From: Spirochaetota bacterium
Lineage (GTDB): Bacteria; Spirochaetota; UBA4802; UBA5368
Direction: 5' to 3'
Length of the DNA: 64,000 nucleotides
Assembly (NCBI GenBank): GCA_004297825.1
Contig: SCSX01000079.1
Location: forward strand, 1 to 64,000
Below are positions 21,332 to 60,789 of this stretch, piece after piece. Both the position numbers and the translations under genes were made by a program. Position 1 is the stretch's first letter. Every line of letters starts with the position of its first letter. The notes beneath the pieces were generated by a model. It did no database searches and was not told where the DNA came from. It saw only the letters and a list, made by a program, of their open reading frames with translations.

Positions 21332-21349
21332 AGATGAGAGGTGTACACA

Positions 21350-21556
21350 ATGCCCACGGTCACGGTTTCGACAAAATACCAGATCGTCATACCCAGGGAG
21401 ATACGGGAAAGCCTCCATGTGAAGGCGGGCCAGAGATTCACCGCTATCCAGTACGGGGACAGGATAGAGCTCGTCCCGGTGAAGAGCGTGAAATCCATGC
21501 GAGGGTACGCCCGGGGCGTCGATACGGAAATCAAAAGGGATAAGGACCGTACATGA
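21350..21556 (+). CDS. vapB: AbrB/MazE-type antitoxin (VapB-like)
   Basis: A 68-residue protein with a swapped-hairpin AbrB DNA-binding domain: VTVSTKYQIVIPREIRESLH, VKAGQRF, then a strand with DRIELVPV. The C-terminal RGVDTEIKRDKDRT tail is the usual toxin-binding arm. It binds its own promoter and neutralises the PIN toxin. GAGAGG precedes the ATG at 21350. The stop overlaps the toxin start (ATGA), a typical coupling. Confidence 0.88.
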   Translation: MPTVTVSTKYQIVIPREIRESLHVKAGQRFTAIQYGDRIELVPVKSVKSMRGYARGVDTEIKRDKDRT

Positions 21557-21924
21557 ACCTGGTCGATTCATCGGGCTGGCTCGAGTATTTCGCCGACGGC
21601 AAAAACGCGGATTTTTTCGCGGCCCCCATCGAGGACATGAAAAACTGCATCATTTCATCGATTAACGTTTACGAGGTGTTTAAAAAACTACTGGAAGAGC
21701 GGGACGAACAGACCGCCCTGCAGATAATCGCGGTGATGCACCAGTGCCGCATTGAACCGGTCGACGCGCGCCTTGCGCTCCTGGGGGCGCAGATAAGCCG
21801 CGACCGAAAGCTCCCCATGGCTGACAGCCTCATCCTCGCTACGGCCCGGCAGCATAATGCGATCCTATGGACACAGGACACGCATTTTAAGGGAATTGAG
21901 GGCGTCCGGTATATTGGGAAGTAA
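21553..21924 (+). CDS. vapC: PIN-domain ribonuclease toxin (VapC-like)
   Basis: A 123-residue PIN-domain protein. The acidic metal site is complete: D5 (NLVDSSGW), E41 (VYEVFKKL), D91 (MADSLILATA) and D109 (WTQDTHF). Such toxins cleave tRNA or other structured RNA until bound by the antitoxin encoded just upstream. Its length is normal and the gene is intact. Confidence 0.9.
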   Translation: MNLVDSSGWLEYFADGKNADFFAAPIEDMKNCIISSINVYEVFKKLLEERDEQTALQIIAVMHQCRIEPVDARLALLGAQISRDRKLPMADSLILATARQHNAILWTQDTHFKGIEGVRYIGK

Positions 21925-22600: not shown

Positions 22601-22871
22601 ATGAATCGAGCATTGTCACTGGTGTTGTTGTGTCTTGCAGTCGCGGTCATCTCATCGCCCGTGAGCGGCGGTGAAAACAGATCGGAGTATGATCCGGCCG
22701 AACTCGTCGACCTGGCCTTGAAGCGGTCCGAACTGCTGACCGCCTCGGAAAAGGACGTCGAATCGGAGAAATGGATGAAAGAGCAGGCGGGGACATGGCA
22801 GAATCCCGCCCTGGGCTTCTCGGCGGGGAATAAATCCTCGTCCGGAAAAAACGGCATCGGTTACGACATGA
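22601..22871 (+). pseudogene. 5' part of a CzcC/CusC-type outer-membrane channel gene, split by the prophage
   Basis: Signal peptide (ALSLVLLCLAVAVISS) and the first helices of a TolC-family outer-membrane factor (ELVDLALKRSELLTASEKDV; QNPALGFSAG) are intact up to codon 90. Then the frame runs into prophage DNA and stops at 22927. The remaining 998 bp resume at 60,790. Joining 22,601-22,871 to 60,790-61,787 gives exactly 423 codons, with YDM-SVTQPFYFPGK across the joint, the right length for an efflux channel. GGGAGG precedes the ATG. While the prophage is present, no functional channel can be made. Confidence 0.9.
22866..22871. repeat. Left target-site duplication of the prophage
   Basis: ACATGA here matches ACATGA at 60,784-60,789. 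Five of the six bases (ACATG or CATGA) are the probable target duplication, the length made by Mu; the sixth is shared by chance. Confidence 0.7.
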
Positions 22872-22900: not shown

Positions 22901-22926
22901 ACCCACATTATTTGCAACTGGAATTG
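22901..22926 (+). repeat. Left-end inverted repeat (putative transposase site)
   Basis: ACCCACATTATTTGCAACTG followed by GAATTG lies 29 bp inside the left terminus. It matches the reverse complement of 60,729-60,754 (ACCCACAATAATGCAACTG, TAAATTG) with a few substitutions and one gap. The equal distance from both ends points to a transposase-binding site. Confidence 0.7.
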
Positions 22927-22975: not shown

Positions 22976-23146
22976 ATGACACTAGATTCCACGAATATAA
23001 GACGTAAGATGCAGGAACACAACGAGAAAATAGACGATTTTTTGAGCGCGCGCCCGGCGAAAAACGGCCTTGAGGACGCAAAATGGCTCTTAAAAAACGG
23101 CCATTCTGCGTTGAAAATAGCGCACTTGGCAGCTGTTTTACCATGA
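22976..23146 (+). CDS. Possible 56-residue ORF at the prophage left end
   Basis: An ATG at 22976 opens a 56-codon frame whose product looks protein-like (QEHNEKIDDFLSARPAKNG, then EDAKWLLKNGHSALKIAHLA). A perfect TATAAT (22972-22977) overlaps the start, so translation may begin at the second ATG, 23009. It reads rightward, against the early operon. The sequence contains AAAAACGGCC twice, about 32 bp apart. It may be a small gene or only the transposase-binding region. Confidence 0.3.
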   Translation: MTLDSTNIRRKMQEHNEKIDDFLSARPAKNGLEDAKWLLKNGHSALKIAHLAAVLP

Positions 23147-27057: not shown

Positions 27058-27966
27058 TTATAGTGCCTTGCTAATGGGGCCGATGGATTTATGGACGTAC
27101 CGGCTCATGAGGTCGTCCAGCCTGTCGTTGTTCCCCTTGTAATTACCTTTCTCGTATTGATGCACGGTAGCCGGGGATATCTTCTCGCCGGTGGTCTCCT
27201 CGATTTCCTTCGCCTTGCGCCGGTAACTTTTATCCATCGCGGCAAGGGCTTCCCTGATAGCCAGGGAGAAGTAATCGTTCACCATCTCCTCGGTGATTTT
27301 CTTCTGATCGAGATCAGAGCGCATCTCGTCGAGTTCTTCATAGGCAGTGATAACCGCGAGCGGTGTTTTCTTGGTACGCTTGAGGAACGTATCCAGAGCC
27401 TTTTCCGTGAACAGAGCGTGGTTCTCGATGAAGAGCGCTTTCTCCTTAGCGGTTAAATCGCTCATCTGAAGGCGCTTGAAACGCGGCCGGAGCTCGTCGT
27501 CGGCGATCCTGTCCTTGAGCGAGGGCTGTCCGAAGAGGATGATGGAGAAGAGCCGATCCTTCATTCCGAAGCCGAGCTCATGCAGCTTCTTGAGTCCCCT
27601 GAGCGTGCTCTTGTGTAGATCCTGCGCCTCGTCGATCGCGAGGATAATATCGGACCCCGAATCTCCGAGGATGCGTCTGAGCTGCCGGCGTCGTGCTTCG
27701 GAATCATGGCGGGGACCTTCACCCGAGATGTCCTGGATGATGGCGCTCATAATCTGCGTGATGTTGCGCACGCCCTCTGACATGGGCGTCACGTCGATGA
27801 TGGCGTAGGAACCCTTCTTTTCCTCGAGGGCTCCAATCACCTGGCGCTTGATGTGGGTCTTGCCGCTTCCCTTTTCGCCGATCACGGCGCCGATCCCCTT
27901 GCGGCCGATCGTGTCCCGGATGAATCGTTCGGCGGAAAGAAAATTCATCGTCTTTACATTGGTCAT
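27058..27966 (-). CDS. MuB-like AAA ATPase (transposition target selector)
   Basis: A 302-residue AAA+ protein. Walker A is GEKGSGKTH (about 30-38), Walker B ILAIDEAQDLH, and sensor-like FGQPSLKDRI follows. The C-terminus contains HTH-like VHQYEKGNYKGNNDRL, whereas Mu B carries its HTH at the N-terminus. It should coat target DNA, stimulate the transposase and give target immunity. Its ATG overlaps the transposase stop by 4 bp. Confidence 0.88.
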   Translation of the reverse strand: MTNVKTMNFLSAERFIRDTIGRKGIGAVIGEKGSGKTHIKRQVIGALEEKKGSYAIIDVTPMSEGVRNITQIMSAIIQDISGEGPRHDSEARRRQLRRILGDSGSDIILAIDEAQDLHKSTLRGLKKLHELGFGMKDRLFSIILFGQPSLKDRIADDELRPRFKRLQMSDLTAKEKALFIENHALFTEKALDTFLKRTKKTPLAVITAYEELDEMRSDLDQKKITEEMVNDYFSLAIREALAAMDKSYRRKAKEIEETTGEKISPATVHQYEKGNYKGNNDRLDDLMSRYVHKSIGPISKAL

Positions 27967-29618
27967 AAAGCTCGCACCTCCCGTACGGTATCTGTAATGA
28001 TCTCCAGTATTTCGGAGAATCTTTCGGGCGGCACTTCGCCGTCCATTTCTATCATGGCGCCGAAAAGCATGGTGATCTTCTCGGCGGTATCATGCGGCAG
28101 CGTGTTCTTTGAAAATCCGGTCGAGCGATACACCCGCAGCCAGGCGCTTTCGACTGTCGCGATGACCGGCACGTCCAGGGGCGTCGATACATCCACCGCG
28201 GCGCCCTTACGGTCGAAGAGCACAATGTTCTCCGGCAGCGTCTCAGCAAAATGCTCGGGCTTTATGACACCCCGCAAGCGCTTGCCTTCGATCTTTATTG
28301 AATCCAGCGCGCGATCGTACACGGTCTTCTCGATTCCCTTGTACTCGCCCATCATCCGCTGCTGGTGCGCCGTCCCCTTGAGCTCATAGGTGTTCCCGTG
28401 CTTGTCCACCGCCTTCATGATGCCGTCCAGGAGCGTGTAGATCGCGACGCGCTGGTCGTTCAGCATGCGGGATACGTAGTATTCCTGGCCCTCAATGGAC
28501 ACGCGGCCACGTACGTCGACCTTGCGTTCGATCATGGTATAGCCGAGCCGCCCGCGCAGGGTTTCGTCGAACTCCCGGAGCAGCCCGGGGGTCTTGTGGA
28601 TCTCCATCCACTTCGTGAAGTACCCCTTCTTTATGTTGTCCGCCGTGATCATCTTCTGGGTGATCTCTCGGTAGCGCTCAATGGAGTCGGGCCTTTCGAA
28701 GGCGAAGCAGCGTTCGATCGTGTTTTTATAATGCCCGATCCTGGACTCGACCCGCCCCTTTGCGCGGGGATTGCCTGGAATGTGGGACCATATCTTTATT
28801 CCAAGGGGCTCGAAGATGTCCTTTAACTGCTGAGAATGCAGAGCGCTGCCTCTGTCGCAGTAGATGTTCTGAGGTATTCCCCTGAACGGATTCTGCGGAT
28901 CGGACTTCGCACTCATGGCGTCCATGAGAAAGTTCATCACCAGGTAATTCGATTCTCCCGGCGATACATAGGCGTTCACCCAATAGGCGCTGGAGAAGAG
29001 GTCGACCACGCAGCCGATAAAAACCTTTCGGTATCCTTTCTTGGTGAGGAGCTCCTCGCGGTGATTCTTGTCGGTGAGGATCCCGGTTGTGTCCATGACG
29101 AGCTTGTCGCTCCGGGAAAGGTAGAATATTTCCGAGACGGAGAAGTCGAGGAACATCCATTTGTTCGGTTCGTCGGTCGCGAGTTCCACGCCGGTGGAGG
29201 CGAGATAGTTCCTGATCTGCCTGTAGGTGAATCCGTGCCAGTCGAGCCAGCGGTTCATCGTGGACGTCGGGATCCCATAGCGAATCTCCCCGGCATTGAA
29301 GAGCGCCCGCACGCAGCTCGCGGTGTCAGCTGTCTTTCCGTTCTTGGTGGCCGCCGCCATCTTCATCGCCGACACCCGCGACGCCGCGAGCGCGCATTCT
29401 TCCGCCGTCATGTCTTTATAGCGCGGCTTTCGGCGATCCTTGCGGTACGCGTCGGCGCGTCCGTTCCCATTCGGAATCTCCTTGAAAGCCCGATAGAAGG
29501 TGGAGGGATGGACGCCGATCCCCGAGGCGAGCTCGTCCACGTAGTCCCCGCGCTCCTTATGCGAGAGCTTTTTCCAGTGCTCGTAGTAGGTATAAATTTC
29601 GATGAGGGAAAGTTTCAT
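27963..29618 (-). CDS. MuA-like DDE transposase
   Basis: A 551-residue transposase. A Mu-type N-terminal helix-turn-helix region (SGIGVHPSTFYRAFKEIP) precedes an integrase-core domain with catalytic D158 (WMFLDFS), D255 (IYCDRGSAL) and E291 (KGRVESRIG), then the beta-barrel Mu-C-like domain. It is shorter than MuA (663), mostly in the N-terminal end-binding part. The start at 29618 overlaps the upstream stop (ATGA); the longer open frame to 30,242 is antiparallel noise over another gene. Confidence 0.93.
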   Translation of the reverse strand: MKLSLIEIYTYYEHWKKLSHKERGDYVDELASGIGVHPSTFYRAFKEIPNGNGRADAYRKDRRKPRYKDMTAEECALAASRVSAMKMAAATKNGKTADTASCVRALFNAGEIRYGIPTSTMNRWLDWHGFTYRQIRNYLASTGVELATDEPNKWMFLDFSVSEIFYLSRSDKLVMDTTGILTDKNHREELLTKKGYRKVFIGCVVDLFSSAYWVNAYVSPGESNYLVMNFLMDAMSAKSDPQNPFRGIPQNIYCDRGSALHSQQLKDIFEPLGIKIWSHIPGNPRAKGRVESRIGHYKNTIERCFAFERPDSIERYREITQKMITADNIKKGYFTKWMEIHKTPGLLREFDETLRGRLGYTMIERKVDVRGRVSIEGQEYYVSRMLNDQRVAIYTLLDGIMKAVDKHGNTYELKGTAHQQRMMGEYKGIEKTVYDRALDSIKIEGKRLRGVIKPEHFAETLPENIVLFDRKGAAVDVSTPLDVPVIATVESAWLRVYRSTGFSKNTLPHDTAEKITMLFGAMIEMDGEVPPERFSEILEIITDTVREVRAL

Positions 29619-30475
29619 CTGCGCGCTCCCGCTATCGCCTTGACGCCGTCGCGATACGGCCCGAGCATGCCGCCGTGGACGGACTCCAGGTCCAGGAGGT
29701 GCCTCGCCGTGACGATGGCGAATCCCTCGATGTCGGCCAGGACGTCTTTGTTGGCGTCGTCTATCGTGATCTGCGCGAGGCGCATGAATGCCGCGTGAAT
29801 GTTCGCCTGGGCTTCCATGACCTTGGAGCGGGCTTCCCTGGTGCGCGAGATGCGCTTGTGGAATTCCTTCTCCTCGACGGGGAAATTGAGCATCTTGTTC
29901 ACGTCGGTGAGCTCGTTCTTGAGCGCGTTTACTTCGGATTCGTGCTCTTCTTTGAGCTCCTCGAAATTGGTTTTTAGCTTCGAGTGCTTGAGCTTCTCGG
30001 CGCGTAGCGCTTTCTCCACCTCCTTGACTTTGACCGCGCCGATCTCGTCTACCGTGATCTGGCTTCCATCCGCGAGCGTGAGGACCTTGTTGTCGAGTAT
30101 CTCCTTCTTCTGGTCCTCGGTGAGCCGGGAAATCATGTCGAGCCGTGAGACCCCCAGGTGCGCGAATTCCGCGAGCCGCCCGCCGAAGGTTTTGCCGATG
30201 CGCTCGATCTGCTGTACCGTCGAGAGCGACATTCCAAAGCAAACCCTGGCGGCGTCCTCCCTCGTGAGCCCCAGGTACAGATACAACTTGTCGCCGAAAA
30301 ACTCGTTGATGAGTTCGGTCATCAGGAGCAGTTCGTTCTGCACCCTTGCGATGATTCCCAGGGCCCTGCCGATTTTCTCCGGATCGCCGGGGAGCGTCTC
30401 CCCCGTGTCGTCGTCGATTATCTTTTCCGGGAGCTCGAAGCCCAGCTTCTTTACCAGCTCATTTTGCAGCGCCAT
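29615..30475 (-). CDS. Coiled-coil early phage protein
   Basis: A 286-residue soluble protein directly upstream of the transposase with a 4-bp overlap. After an N-terminal helical region comes a long coiled coil at about 150-225 (KVKEVEKALRAEKLKHSKLK, LKEEHESEVNALKNELTDVN). The function is unknown. Its fixed position before A and B suggests a part in transposition or replication control. An ATG at 30475 overlaps the preceding wHTH gene. Confidence 0.75.
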   Translation of the reverse strand: MALQNELVKKLGFELPEKIIDDDTGETLPGDPEKIGRALGIIARVQNELLLMTELINEFFGDKLYLYLGLTREDAARVCFGMSLSTVQQIERIGKTFGGRLAEFAHLGVSRLDMISRLTEDQKKEILDNKVLTLADGSQITVDEIGAVKVKEVEKALRAEKLKHSKLKTNFEELKEEHESEVNALKNELTDVNKMLNFPVEEKEFHKRISRTREARSKVMEAQANIHAAFMRLAQITIDDANKDVLADIEGFAIVTARHLLDLESVHGGMLGPYRDGVKAIAGARR

Positions 30476-40249: not shown

Positions 40250-41446
40250 GTGAAGTACGGGGAGTTTCTCTCCGGTTTCGAGGTCTTCATCGACCAGGAT
40301 AACCTGGTCGACAAGATCATGGACTATGCCGCGCTAAAGATGGGACAGGAGCTCCCCGCGGACGCGCGTACGGTGATCGAGAAATGGACGGGAGCATCGT
40401 ACAAGCTCGGGCTCGGCCAGGACTGGAGCGATGCGAAGTGGAAGGTGACCGACCGCAATGCCCTGGCTTTCTTCCGCCGGCACGACCAGTATTTCTTCGG
40501 CAACCAGTTTCAGCATTATTCCGACGATCTCCGGACGGTTGTTGAAAACGAGCTCAAGGGAGTGCGCGCGTACAACAAGGAGGTGGTGGATCGGCTTCGC
40601 GAAAAGATGGGCGAGGCATTCGAGCATCCTTACGTCAAAGACTATTACGACCTGGTGGTGCGTAACGCCGTCAACAAGAGCCGGAACTTCGGGCGGGTGT
40701 TTAACTATGAACGCTTGGGAATTGCCGAGGTGGAGATCGTCGCGATCCGGGACCAGAAGACGAGCCGGATATGCCGTGAGATGGACGGCCGCAGGGTTGA
40801 GGTGAAATTCCTGGCCGACCACGTACGGGAGGTTCTCTCGACTCCCATGAATGAGCTCACGGAGAAATTCGCATGGCCGACCGACGCGGACGCGAAAAGC
40901 TACGAGGGTCTTTCGACCGCCGATATCCTGGGACACATCAAGACACCGCTTCCGCCGTTTCACGGCCGCTGCAGGACGACCACGGTGATCGGCAAGCGGA
41001 TAACGGTGCGGAAATCTACGGGAGGAAGTTTCAGCGGCGAGCTTGCGTACGATGACAAGAATGAGGCTGCGCGCACGCGCGCGGGAATGCTGGGCACCCT
41101 CCGGAATGACGAGCTGCTCTCGAAGATGGACGGACTCGCAAAGACCGGTTACTGGGACAATAAGCCTCATGAATGGCCGGACGGCACAGAACGGATGAGC
41201 CGGGAATTTCACGAAGAGAAGCACGGGCATGAATTCAAGGAAGGGTATGACACGGCGCTTAAAAATTTGTTGAAAAGTTACAGCAATGTTTATACCTATC
41301 TTCAAGGAGAGGCACCGGTCTGGATCGTGCGCGAGGCGGCGACAAAAAAATATTTGCTCCTTAATGACGCGGGAAAGATACTCACTTTCCATAGACAGGA
41401 TAGAGTGCGCAGACGGATTCTGGAGACGGCGGTAGAAATATTATGA
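40250..41446 (+). CDS. Head-morphogenesis protein (Mu gp30 / SPP1 gp7-like)
   Basis: At least 398 residues. The minor-head domain is visible: KSRNFGRVFNYERLGIAEVE, IRDQKTSRICREMDGRR and the terminal FHGRCRTTTVIG motif. A C-terminal extra domain (GMLGTLRNDELLSKMDGLAK to the end) follows, with an HEWPDG and EEKHGH stretch. The only start codon in this frame is GTG 40,250, without a ribosome site, while the frame is open and protein-like upstream to the portal A10 run. The real product may therefore be a portal fusion. Confidence 0.8.
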   Translation: MKYGEFLSGFEVFIDQDNLVDKIMDYAALKMGQELPADARTVIEKWTGASYKLGLGQDWSDAKWKVTDRNALAFFRRHDQYFFGNQFQHYSDDLRTVVENELKGVRAYNKEVVDRLREKMGEAFEHPYVKDYYDLVVRNAVNKSRNFGRVFNYERLGIAEVEIVAIRDQKTSRICREMDGRRVEVKFLADHVREVLSTPMNELTEKFAWPTDADAKSYEGLSTADILGHIKTPLPPFHGRCRTTTVIGKRITVRKSTGGSFSGELAYDDKNEAARTRAGMLGTLRNDELLSKMDGLAKTGYWDNKPHEWPDGTERMSREFHEEKHGHEFKEGYDTALKNLLKSYSNVYTYLQGEAPVWIVREAATKKYLLLNDAGKILTFHRQDRVRRRILETAVEIL

Positions 41447-41778
41447 AAGGGTACGGCTTACCGAAAGAAACGTACATTGAGCTCCTTACCGACAGGATCG
41501 AGTACTTCGGACGACAGCTCCCGGATGAGGATTTCCAGATCATGGATATGCGGTATGCCTATGATGAGGAAGGGTACGAGGTTACTGGCGAGCTCGTCAC
41601 GCTCGATGAAAAGATAATCCGGATCGCGAAGGAGCTCGGCGCGATTGAAAGCGATAATGGTGAGGAGCACTGGATATGGAACCTGGACGCGGTTGCGCGC
41701 GGAGCGTACCCGATAGAGAAACTCCCCACCCATGTGCGGGATCTCGCGAAGGAGCTTTACTATGACCGAGCAGCTTAA
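41443..41778 (+). CDS. Small phage protein in the head region
   Basis: A 111-residue acidic protein (DEDFQIMDMRYAYDEEGYEV; GAIESDNGEEHWIWNLDAVA) overlapping the previous gene by 4 bp. No family is recognised. In Mu the corresponding position holds gene G (gp31), but similarity is not apparent. Confidence 0.6.
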   Translation: MKGYGLPKETYIELLTDRIEYFGRQLPDEDFQIMDMRYAYDEEGYEVTGELVTLDEKIIRIAKELGAIESDNGEEHWIWNLDAVARGAYPIEKLPTHVRDLAKELYYDRAA

Positions 41779-42007
41779 GCTCATCGAGATCAACGAGATA
41801 AAGAACATCCGCGTGACATGCAGGCGATGTTCCGCCGCCCTGAAGATGGCGGTCGAAGATTTCAAAGCGATCGACAAATGCCCCCGCTGCGGCGAAGAAT
41901 ACGGGAGGTTGCGGGACATGTTCATCGATTTGAAGAACATGCTGAAGAACAGGGACGCGAATGACAAGTTTGTGGTACAGATCGAATTGGATGAGGACGC
42001 ACGCTAA
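41762..42007 (+). CDS. Com-like zinc-finger protein
   Basis: An 81-residue protein with one four-Cys zinc finger: RVTCRRCSAALKMAV...DKCPRCGEEYGRL, in the form of Mu Com, the translational activator of mom. The C-terminus is helical and charged. AAGGAG precedes the ATG, which lies inside the preceding gene. Here it sits mid-genome before a non-coding gap, and the modification gene is 18 kb away, so a Com role is only a suggestion. Confidence 0.6.
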   Translation: MTEQLKLIEINEIKNIRVTCRRCSAALKMAVEDFKAIDKCPRCGEEYGRLRDMFIDLKNMLKNRDANDKFVVQIELDEDAR

Positions 42008-42245
42008 AGCCTTTTTCGGGGGGTGATCCACGATTCCGGGATCGATGTAGCATAAACGGTATTTAAACAGTTTTAAACGCCTTCCGTGCGGTCTGGAGGG
42101 CGGGAATTAGAGACTCACAGACGCACCACACATAGAACGTCAATAACCGATATAGCCGAAGCATGAAAACACGGATTTCCGTCGTTTCCATGCCCGGAGA
42201 TATCGGTTTTTTTGTGCCCTGGACAGGCAGGAGGAGAAGACGGGG
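42008..42245. other. Central non-coding gap at the Mu strong-gyrase-site position
   Basis: This 238-bp gap is the longest in the late block. Its midpoint (42,126) is about 300 bp from the midpoint of the prophage (41,828). In Mu the strong gyrase site lies at the genome centre, between G and I, and the gene before and the protease gene after match that. It contains AT-rich TTTAAACAGTTTTAAAC and the long hairpin described separately. Sequence alone cannot show gyrase binding. Confidence 0.4.
42145..42213 (+). terminator. Long hairpin with T tract in the central gap
   Basis: AACCGATAT (42,145-42,153) pairs with ATATCGGTT (42,200-42,208), and inside it GCATG pairs with CATGC and ACGGA with TCCGT. 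TTTTT follows directly. It reads as a rightward terminator or attenuator between the head-morphogenesis genes and the protease gene. Confidence 0.65.
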
Positions 42246-43484
42246 ATGGATGAAAGGCTGAGAAAACGATTCGAGGAATTGCGGAGCCAGGGATTAGTGA
42301 TCGACGAGCATCGCGGCGTCGCATCGCTCACGCTTCACAGCCGCATGCGTTTCGCGGAAAAGGGCGTTGGGGCGGAGGGAACGGACGCAACGCTCAGCCT
42401 CGATGAAGATGAGAAATATCTCTACGCGCCTTTTCGCGCGCTCACCGCGACGGTCATCCGTGATCGGGCGATCGATTTCTCCGATGCCGCGATGCTTAAA
42501 AAATCGGCAAAGATGCTCCTGGGGCAAACGGTCTACGCTAATCACACCCAGGACGTGACGGCCTGGCTCGGCGTAGTTGCGAAGACCTGGTGGGACGATG
42601 GCGGCACGATTCCTCCCGGCGTGAACGCGACGCTCAAGATCAGCAAGGAGTGGAACCTGAAGATCGTCGCCGGGATCAAGGAGGAAGCGATCCACAGCGC
42701 CAGCGTCGAGGTGTACTTCGAGTGGAAAAAGTCTCACCCGGATCTCGAGGATTTCTGGTTTCACTTCGGGGAGGAGATCGACGGGAAGCTGGTGTGCGTC
42801 ATCGCGACGGCAATCATATCGTACGGCGAGATATCACTTGTGTGGCAGGGGGCCGATATCTACGCCAAGCGATTGAGTTTACAGGCGGCAACGGGCGGAA
42901 GGGACGGAGTGTCCGCGTCCGGGAAGGCGAAAGGCACGGAAGACATTACAGGAGGTGCAAGCTACATGAAGCTTACACGACAGGCAGTTCTACTCTTTGG
43001 GCTCATGCCCTCGATTTACGGGTTCGCGGGCTCCGCGCAGGAGATCGAGCTCGATGAGGCCATGCAGGCGAAGTTCATCGATGACGCGAAAAAGAAATAC
43101 GCCGAGCTCTCCGAGACAAGCGCAGCGCAGCGCGCGCTGCTCACGACGCTTTTCGGGGAGACCCCGGCGGATACGACCGCTGCCGAGAATCTGAAAAGCC
43201 GCGCGGCAATGGGAGACGCACACCTCGCCGAGGTCCGGGAAGATGCGCTCAAGTTCGCGAAGCTCGCGGAAGGAAGCGAAAAACTCACCGAGGCACTGGG
43301 AAAGACGATTGCGGGTGCAAGCCTTGAGGACGCGGTGAAGTTCCGCGACGAGTACCGCGCGAAGGCCGAAGAGAAGTTTCCGCCCCGCTGTACCAAATGC
43401 GGGGAGAAGTTCTCCAGGGCAAGCGGGCATAAAATTACCGCTCCGGCGGAGCGGGAGATAGATCCCGACGACTACATTCTGTAA
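42246..43484 (+). CDS. Prohead protease with scaffold tail (Mu I-like)
   Basis: A 412-residue protein. The N-terminal ~220 residues resemble the Mu I-type prohead protease region (YLYAPFRALTATVIRDRAID; LLGQTVYANHTQDVTAWLGV; IHSASVEVYFEW, with a His and Ser as expected of an S78-like serine protease). The C-terminal ~170 are helical, Ala/Glu/Lys-rich scaffold, ending with a CTKCGEKF metal-type pair. GGAGGAG precedes the ATG. Confidence 0.8.
   Translation: MDERLRKRFEELRSQGLVIDEHRGVASLTLHSRMRFAEKGVGAEGTDATLSLDEDEKYLYAPFRALTATVIRDRAIDFSDAAMLKKSAKMLLGQTVYANHTQDVTAWLGVVAKTWWDDGGTIPPGVNATLKISKEWNLKIVAGIKEEAIHSASVEVYFEWKKSHPDLEDFWFHFGEEIDGKLVCVIATAIISYGEISLVWQGADIYAKRLSLQAATGGRDGVSASGKAKGTEDITGGASYMKLTRQAVLLFGLMPSIYGFAGSAQEIELDEAMQAKFIDDAKKKYAELSETSAAQRALLTTLFGETPADTTAAENLKSRAAMGDAHLAEVREDALKFAKLAEGSEKLTEALGKTIAGASLEDAVKFRDEYRAKAEEKFPPRCTKCGEKFSRASGHKITAPAEREIDPDDYIL
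42966..43484 (+). CDS. Nested scaffold protein (Mu Z-like) from an internal start
   Basis: AGGAGGT at 42,950-42,956 stands 9 bp before an in-frame ATG at 42,966, the best ribosome site in this gene. Initiation there yields the 172-residue scaffold alone (MKLTRQAVLLFGLMPS...). Mu makes its scaffold Z in just this way from within gene I. The product should be an internal head scaffold removed during maturation. Confidence 0.7.
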   Translation: MKLTRQAVLLFGLMPSIYGFAGSAQEIELDEAMQAKFIDDAKKKYAELSETSAAQRALLTTLFGETPADTTAAENLKSRAAMGDAHLAEVREDALKFAKLAEGSEKLTEALGKTIAGASLEDAVKFRDEYRAKAEEKFPPRCTKCGEKFSRASGHKITAPAEREIDPDDYIL

Positions 43485-45749: not shown

Positions 45750-46150
45750 TCGTACGTAAATCGTATTGCACCAGGCTCCTCAATCGATCCTGGGGAGGGA
45801 TCGCGAAGGGAACGATCATCGTGCAACGCGTCACCTCTATAGCCGGGGACGGATTTTTAAACGTTGCGAAGTCCGGGATCCGGACGCCGGGAGCATTACA
45901 GAATTGCGATATCTGGCTCGCAACTCAGAAGAGAAAGGAAACCCGCGTGGGTGTCGAAACGAGTGCCGACGCCATTATCTGGATGGACCGGGACCTGATC
46001 GCAACGCTTGGAGAAACGGATATCATCACCATCGGGGGAACGATCCAGGGCGGGAACGTAACGGGTGGGACGGACTTTCGGATAAAGAATATCGATGCGT
46101 ATGATTCGATCATCGGCGACAAGGCGAAGGTGGAGCTCGCGAGGTTGTGA
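45746..46150 (+). CDS. Head-tail joining protein (stopper-like)
   Basis: A 134-residue strand-rich protein (KGTIIVQRVTSIAGDGFLNV; WLATQKRKETRVGVETSADA; IITIGGTIQGGNVTGGTDFR). By order it corresponds to the stopper or neck protein between connector and tail terminator. The start at 45,746 overlaps the preceding stop (ATGA). Confidence 0.6.
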   Translation: MIVRKSYCTRLLNRSWGGIAKGTIIVQRVTSIAGDGFLNVAKSGIRTPGALQNCDIWLATQKRKETRVGVETSADAIIWMDRDLIATLGETDIITIGGTIQGGNVTGGTDFRIKNIDAYDSIIGDKAKVELARL

Positions 46151-46578
46151 TGGAAGGGAACTTCGATCGGCTCATGGAACTCCTCGAGAATTTCAAAGAA
46201 CACATGGAAGACAAGATGGCCTCTCCACTCGAGGAAGCCGGAGAGATCGTGCGGAAGAACATTGTGAAGGGGATTCGTGATCAGAAGTGGCTGATGCCGC
46301 CTCTTGCCGCGAAGACCGGTCTGCGGAAAGCGAAACTCGGGCACTCCCCGCTCATTCTCATCGCGAAGGGTGATTACTTCGCATCCTTCACGACGGAGCG
46401 TATCCGCTGGGATGAGGTGCACGTGGGGACAAATCATCCCCAGGGACGCGCGCTCGAATTCGGGTATGCCCCGCGCGGTCTTCCCGCCCGTCCGCACATG
46501 ACCCCGGCGCTGGAAGAAAGTATGCCCGAGGTCATGGAAGTTATCGAAGAGGGTTACCGGAAAGTATTCGGGGTGTGA
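46150..46578 (+). CDS. Virion morphogenesis / tail completion protein (gpG-like)
   Basis: About 142 residues with the HK97 gp10-like pattern: an N-terminal amphipathic helix (DRLMELLENFKEHMEDKMAS), then VGTNHPQGRALEFGYAPRGL and PARPHMTPALEESM near the end. This family caps or joins tails. It starts at ATG 46,150, overlapping the preceding stop; GTG 46,147 is possible. Confidence 0.72.
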   Translation: MEGNFDRLMELLENFKEHMEDKMASPLEEAGEIVRKNIVKGIRDQKWLMPPLAAKTGLRKAKLGHSPLILIAKGDYFASFTTERIRWDEVHVGTNHPQGRALEFGYAPRGLPARPHMTPALEESMPEVMEVIEEGYRKVFGV

Positions 46579-59855: not shown

Positions 59856-59939
59856 AATCCACGATGACGCGTGGACCACAGTAAACTGCTGCTCAATAAT
59901 ATTCTCGATAAATCCCGTGATATTATTAAGGAGTTTTAC

Positions 59940-60716
59940 ATGAATAGTCCCCTCGCGTATATCGGCGGAAAAAGCATTCTTTCCAAGACCATCGTCAAAC
60001 TGATTCCTTCCCATATCACCTATTGCGAGGCGTTCACCGGCGGCGGTTGGATGCTCTTCCGTAAGGAACCGTCCAAGGCCGAAATAATCAACGATCTCGA
60101 CCGTGACCTGGTCGCCTTTTATAGGGTGATCCAGAATCACCTCGAAGAATTCTTAAAGCAATTTAAATGGCTTCTCACATCCCGGGAAATGTTCGAGGAC
60201 TTCAAAGAGCAACTTGAGGTCCGGGGCCTCACCGACATTCAGCGCGCCGCGCGTTATTACTATGTGCAGCGCACATGCTTCGCGGGAAAGGTTAGAGGGA
60301 GGACCTTCGGTGTGAGCTCGGATCGCAAGCCCCGGATCAACCTGGTCCGCATGGAAGAAGAACTATCCGAGGTTCACTTAAGGCTTTCCCAGGTGTTGAT
60401 CGAGAACCTCAGCTGGGATGAATTTATCAGCCGGTACGATCGGCCCGCGACTTTCTTTTACCTCGACCCGCCGTATTACAAAAAGCCGGTCTATAAGCAC
60501 AACTTCGAAAGCATCGATGACTTCATTCGCATGCGTGACATTCTTAAAGGCCTCAAAGGCAAGTTCATTTTGAGCATCAACGACCATCCTGAAATACGAG
60601 AGGTCTTTAATGGCTTCCGCATGGTTCCAGTTTCGTTGAACTACACTGCCGGGATGGAGGTTACAGCGGGCAGGGAGTTGATAATAGGGAACGTTCCCCT
60701 GAAGTTAGCAGGATGA
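59940..60716 (+). CDS. DNA adenine methyltransferase (Dam/D12 class)
   Basis: A 258-residue D12-class N6-adenine methyltransferase. SAM-binding motif I lies near the N-terminus (SPLAYIGGKS ... CEAFTGGGWML), followed by NDLDRDLVAFYRVI, the catalytic DPPY (YLDPPYYKKPVY) and a C-terminal SLNYTAGMEVTAGRELIIGN. AAGGAG precedes ATG 59,940. No restriction enzyme is next to it, so it is an orphan enzyme. It takes the place of Mu mom at the right end and would protect phage DNA from host nucleases. The target sequence cannot be told. Confidence 0.88.
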   Translation: MNSPLAYIGGKSILSKTIVKLIPSHITYCEAFTGGGWMLFRKEPSKAEIINDLDRDLVAFYRVIQNHLEEFLKQFKWLLTSREMFEDFKEQLEVRGLTDIQRAARYYYVQRTCFAGKVRGRTFGVSSDRKPRINLVRMEEELSEVHLRLSQVLIENLSWDEFISRYDRPATFFYLDPPYYKKPVYKHNFESIDDFIRMRDILKGLKGKFILSINDHPEIREVFNGFRMVPVSLNYTAGMEVTAGRELIIGNVPLKLAG

Positions 60717-60728
60717 CGTGGTTTTTCA

Positions 60729-60754
60729 CAATTTACAGTTGCATTATTGTGGGT
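60729..60754 (-). repeat. Right-end inverted repeat (putative transposase site)
   Basis: The reverse complement ACCCACAATAATGCAACTG plus TAAATTG matches the left-end repeat at 22,901. It lies 29-30 bp inside the right terminus, as the left copy does on its side. Confidence 0.7.
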
Positions 60755-60783: not shown

Positions 60784-60789
60784 ACATGA
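60784..60789. repeat. Right target-site duplication of the prophage
   Basis: ACATGA, the second copy of the sequence at 22,866-22,871. Host channel-gene sequence resumes directly after it. Confidence 0.7.

Follow-up and report, generated by a model that had tools for sequence, protein, structure and literature searches.

The question raised by this locus is whether the non-coding gap in the middle of a prophage from an uncultured spirochaete, at 42008–42245 of the window (the whole stretch of 64,000 nucleotides analysed here), is a central gyrase site, a kind of site already known from phage Mu (strong gyrase site, SGS). According to our analysis, the gap probably combines a gyrase-wrapping site, central to a Mu-like prophage, with an intrinsic terminator or attenuator of the late operon, a reading to which we give a probability of about 0.68 on the basis of sequence comparisons.

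The ends of the prophage were located through the host gene that it splits, the direct repeat ACATGA and an inverted end box. These features and the transposition genes are as follows:

22866–22871, plus strand: left copy of the target-site duplication ACATGA (6 bp)
22902–22920, plus strand: left end box CCCACATTATTTGCAACTG, a probable transposase site
27058–27966, minus strand: transposition ATPase B (phrog_296/2630, AAA_22)
27963–30242, minus strand: transposase A (phrog_310/2610, rve)
60736–60753, minus strand: right end box CCCACAATAATGCAACTG, kept in relatives
60784–60789, plus strand: right copy of the target-site duplication ACATGA (6 bp)

Delimited in this way, the prophage spans 22872–60783 (37,912 bp), has TA...TA termini and interrupts a host gene for an outer-membrane efflux protein (OEP), of which the N-terminal part lies at 22601–22871 and the C-terminal part starts at 60784. 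The inverted box near both ends reads CCCACA(N4-5)TGCAACTG; a scan for ungapped 22-bp repeats missed the ends because the two end boxes differ in length by one base. Like ends were found in two relatives, G297 (37,471 bp, 6-bp duplication CCTCGT) and G146 (37,153 bp, 6-bp duplication GGAATT). With its DDE transposase and AAA+ B protein, its target duplication, its defined ends and a size within 36–39 kb, the element is a transposable (Mu-like) phage. It resembles the TA-TA transposable prophages described in Leptospira (about 38 kb, 6-bp duplications; PMC8705779) in its spirochaete host, length, TA...TA ends and 6-bp duplications. That study considered that a gyrase site might account for the conserved length and synteny of its prophages, and the parts of the paper cited here report no gyrase-site sequence as found.

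Several observations concern the layout of the element and its surroundings. The early transposition genes (27058–30242) run in the opposite direction to the late genes (36230–60716), unlike in Mu, and this opposed layout is also seen in the spirochaete relatives. The last gene before the right end (59871–60716) encodes a D12-class adenine methyltransferase and occupies the place of mom in Mu. In the host flank (21334–21924), a small ORF followed by a PIN-domain gene looks like a toxin-antitoxin pair.

Once the ends were known, the centre of the prophage fell at 41,827.5 and the midpoint of the gap at 42,126.5, an offset of 299 bp, which bears out the statement of the first-pass annotation that the gap lies within 0.3 kb of the centre. 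It is likewise the largest gap of the late block, and the sole large one, as had been claimed: 238 bp are uncovered by plus-strand ORFs of at least 60 aa, against 62, 47 and 27 bp for the next uncovered stretches. Its immediate neighbourhood is the following:

41443–41778, plus strand: 111-aa gene (phrog_9741), the conserved 5' neighbour of the element
41732–42007, plus strand: 91-aa ORF (phrog_4875), 5' of the gap and overlapping the 111-aa gene
42008–42245, plus strand: central non-coding gap in the ORF map, candidate gyrase site and terminator
42246–43484, plus strand: head maturation protease (phrog_8158, E 7e-47), at the position of Mu gene I

The genes around the gap encode terminase, portal, F-type minor head protein, decoration and major head proteins, sheath and tape measure, so that the gap is intergenic, with the portal/F side on one flank and the protease and capsid genes on the other. 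That it directly precedes an I-like protease can be maintained for the position and function of the downstream gene, through its match to phrog_8158, but not for its family, as the protease has no Pfam match. A Mu-type G/I layout, with a G-type gene before the gap, was in turn not found: the neck-1 (Mu G-type) gene lies at 46147–46578, past the capsid gene and not adjoining the gap, and the upstream gene is not G. In the three relatives inspected around the gap (G162, G146 and G131), the gap directly follows the 111-aa gene. The gap sequence is single-copy within the genome, a nucleotide search of the gap against phages returned chance matches only, and no Rfam family was detected in the region 20000–64000.

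A comparison with related Mu-like prophages had been proposed as a check, and it revealed that the gap is conserved in six other spirochaete phages with the same gene order: three Spirochaetota MAGs (G162, G146, G131) and the IMG/VR contigs L035, L036 (the above G297) and L037/L038. These relatives were recovered by whole-genome and contig searches and by terminase alignment, while single-protein scans of two large collections with the protease yielded no relative. Their proteases are 41–53% identical to that of the window phage over the aligned parts, and the gap is present at the same place in all of them. Three features of the gap emerged from the alignment:

42008–42021, plus strand: 5' box AGCCTTTTTCGGGG, adjoining the stop codon of the upstream gene and possibly the cleavage core
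42009–42128, plus strand: 120-bp stretch with an ungapped alignment across the seven diverged phages, comparable in size to a gyrase footprint, its extent depending on the alignment
42062–42078, plus strand: phased double box TTTAAAC-AGT-TTTAAAC, boxes 10 bp apart, a right-arm-like wrapping signature

The order of the element is thus a 5' box (consensus RGC(C/A)..TTTT across the seven phages, directly behind the upstream gene in most of them) and, 53–55 bp further on, TTTAAACNNTTTTAAA, i.e., two TTTAAA boxes 10 bp apart. The exact double box is found in the window phage, G162, G146, G131, G297 and L035, with a close variant (TATTAAACGATTTTAAAC) in L037/L038, and the core TTAAAC..TTTTAAA is nearly identical in all seven aligned gaps, whose 120 columns contain no internal gap. 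From phage to phage, the distance between the 5' box and the double box is 55, 55, 55, 55, 54, 53 and 55 bp; the gap itself measures 192–266 bp, and 122–201 bp separate the double box from its end. The double box sits at 50.6% of the window prophage, 52.5% of G297 and 54.9% of G146, which is 1–1.8 kb off centre in the latter two.

Such a near-identical core with its spacing, in seven phages with proteases this diverged, disfavours the idea that the gap is a chance leftover combining AT-rich words and a terminator, which we regard as highly improbable, even though the periodicity of the window copy (see below) is not significant by itself. The double box is also the single match in the 64-kb window when up to two mismatches are allowed (0.02 expected), and the phased TTTAA[AC] pair occurs once in the prophage against 0.0 expected in shuffles. 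Being unique in the prophage, it is no site that recurs from one late promoter to the next. The motif alone, however, is not specific: a motif-first scan of viral contigs returned 115 loci, nine of them with Mu-like proteins, among which L080 and L088 were relatives already known, with the motif inside the gap, while L125 has it between the F-like and protease genes, L123 just past F, and the others elsewhere.

The double box is absent from four more distant spirochaete relatives (L024, L030, L040 and L044). The first 170 bp past their relative of the 111-aa gene have conserved words of their own, namely a 5' box with T tracts about 10 bp apart, GGTCGGGAAA, GACATAA and GCAACG..CAACG; these may represent an alternative version of the site. 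In L027 and L029, from the same phylum, the protease gene stands between terminase and portal, and no phased double box was found. Extra ORFs were noticed between the element and the protease in L024 (minus strand, about 13740–12680), L040 (14680–15080) and L025 (minus strand, 19540–19300). This slot is the one occupied by anti-CRISPR genes in Pseudomonas Mu-like phages (Ab30), and by analogy it may be a place for anti-defence genes in these distant relatives.

In Mu (NC_000929), the gap between genes G and I contains the mapped gyrase cut (17879/17880, at 48.7% of the genome), a predicted terminator and the late promoter P_I. Our 5' box may be compared with AGGCATAAAATCAGCC of Mu, which has the mapped cut inside it, and the Mu sequence beyond the cut is GATTTTTTAAAACGCGCCACGGGATTTTTAAACCGGTATTTAACGG. 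About 35–54 bp past the cut, within the right arm, comes TTTTTAAACCGGTATTTAAC, whose counterpart in the window gap, TTTAAACAGTTTTAAAC, shares its orientation and its interval within the gene order. The right arm of the Mu SGS is essential and bends (PMC10052514), and its AT repeats face the C-terminal domain of GyrA in the cryo-EM structure (PMC11626157). The window gap therefore resembles the Mu SGS in being a late intergenic gap near the centre (50.6% vs. 48.7% in Mu), between the portal/F side and the protease and capsid genes, with phased TTTAAA(C) boxes on the protease side and an intrinsic terminator in the same gap. In contrast, its boxes are 10 bp apart instead of about 11–12, its 5' box is about 7 bp farther from the double box, its terminator is separate and downstream whereas that of Mu overlaps the right arm, there is no room after the terminator for a P_I-type promoter, the upstream gene is not the same, and overall DNA similarity is nil.

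Phased A/T boxes bend DNA regardless of their reader, and the Mu domain depends on host nucleoid proteins too (PMC3820752), two points that would also fit an HU/IHF-type nucleoid-protein bend site, folding the prophage domain or aiding packaging, in place of a gyrase site. Yet, the equivalent boxes of Mu contact GyrA (PMC11626157) and the position fits the Mu gyrase site rather than the enhancer or the ends, which makes this alternative very unlikely.

For other Mu-like phages, the pattern was fixed as two TTTAA[AC] boxes 9–12 bp apart. A phased pair is present in the pre-protease gap of Vibrio ZX4290, Mannheimia 3927AP2, Haemophilus SuMu, Pasteurella Pmp9, Shewanella MuM16-1 and Klebsiella Kp4852-3, standing before inserted genes in Shewanella and Pasteurella. 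The Vibrio and Mannheimia pairs had first been seen by eye, so that the other four are out of sample; in these four, the pair lies at 48–52% of the record, before the protease gene. Mannheimia and SuMu, both with AT-rich genomes, have additional copies elsewhere, hence position matters besides the pattern. No phased TTTAA[AC] pair was found in Pseudomonas D3112. In Pseudomonas phage Ab30, a central intergenic segment was proposed as a gyrase site from a transposition-free stretch of 37 bp (PMC5977238); it is likewise central and intergenic, and follows a neck gene, but the phased TTTAAA boxes of the window were not found in the Ab30 and D3112 gaps. The boxes thus recur in the same gap across Mu-like phages of two phyla. 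That a phased TTTAAA(C) element between portal/F and protease might be a general mark of the central gyrase site in transposable phages of Pseudomonadota and Spirochaetota is a proposal that we make tentatively, at slightly less than even odds.

The published gyrase motif has an arm length of 48 bp and a period of 10.75 bp (PMC6379681). At this period, the AT periodicity of the window gap is weak (p 0.067 relative to windows of equal size from the prophage, 0.13 relative to shuffled versions of the gap). When combined by Fisher's method, p reaches 2e-4 for 11 spirochaete gaps and 2e-6 for seven proteobacterial gaps, values that ignore shared ancestry. The AT/GC profile of the Mu SGS, used as a 130-bp template, did not single out the window gap (p 0.4–0.8); it also fails on most proteobacterial Mu-like phages and is not a defining feature. 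Given the weak periodicity of the window copy and the failure of the template, the case rests on the conserved boxes, their spacing and their position. The candidate strong gyrase site of the first-pass annotation is partly supported, by the conserved boxes, the Mu right-arm signature and the shared interval; the periodicity of this copy is suggestive at most, and the template gave no match. As a separate observation, in both the window prophage and G297 the 10.5-bp AT periodicity peaks a short way in from the left end, at 23040–23100 and at about 75–90 bp from that end, respectively, and possibly reflects sites for the transposase or a bend protein.

The gap also contains the long hairpin with a T tract that had been reported, at 42145–42208, with seven T at 42207–42213:

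42145–42213, plus strand: predicted intrinsic terminator or attenuator, stem ACCGATAT...ATATCGGT followed by 7 T

Its 70 nt fold with −31.9 kcal/mol, and the whole gap has a fold z of −3.1 against shuffles. The features predicted for an intrinsic terminator are all present, i.e., a stable hairpin, a T run directly after it and location on the transcribed strand. The T tract ends only some 30 bp short of the protease start, which makes it more likely that transcription is attenuated, with read-through, than stopped altogether.

The main rival to a gyrase site starts from this hairpin: the gap would serve late-transcription control only, the terminator or attenuator setting the ratio of portal/terminase to capsid transcripts and the TTTAAAC double box binding a late regulator or a nucleoid protein. 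The outer stem (ACCGAT/ATCGGT or GCCGAT/ATCGGC) and the T run are indeed kept in six of the seven phages, with outer-stem changes from A-T to G-C, while the inner parts are very different; moreover, the corresponding gap of Mu has a terminator and a late promoter, and direct repeats 10 bp apart also fit a dimeric regulator. However, the prophage has a single double box and none at any other late operon, and G146 retains the box although it has lost the T-tract hairpin, two facts that speak against this explanation. In addition, the gap yielded no sigma-70-like promoter, the short distance to the protease start leaves no room for a promoter past the terminator, and the signature is common to proteobacterial Mu-like phages. 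We therefore consider control of transcription alone unlikely. The refuting alternative named by the first-pass annotation, a mere terminator or promoter region devoid of conservation, does not describe the gap either, which holds a conserved element of fixed spacing separate from the terminator.

If the gap is a central gyrase site, host gyrase would cleave near its 5' side, roughly at 42010–42045, and the 3' arm, with a TTTAAAC box at each helical turn, would wrap around one GyrA C-terminal domain. By supercoiling processively from this midpoint, gyrase would then drive out a plectonemic loop whose apex is the gap; the left and right ends of the prophage would thereby meet, allowing the transposase to assemble and replicative transposition to proceed, which is the established course of events in Mu. 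The GyrA of the host has a C-terminal wrapping domain with six blades, five of them above the cut-off. For the window phage, we infer gyrase binding, the cut position, the synapsis of the ends and the effect on replication from these resemblances. Several "strong" gyrase sites tried in Mu failed to replace the native one (PMC10052514), so a gyrase site recognized at the sequence level need not act in the manner of Mu.

The generality of such gyrase sites among transposable phages was called unclear in a published study. What is new here is sequence evidence for a candidate Mu-type site in phages of spirochaetes, distinguished by a box spacing of its own and by a terminator set apart from it. 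This suggests that a central gyrase aid to replication may be common to transposable phages of very different bacteria, and a conserved, unique element of fixed spacing makes that generality testable, and the spirochaete copies provide natural sequence variation from which the DNA features recognized by gyrase could be learned. Were the phased boxes a general mark, gyrase sites would be readable from sequence, and the site, not gene order alone, would constrain the length and layout of these genomes.
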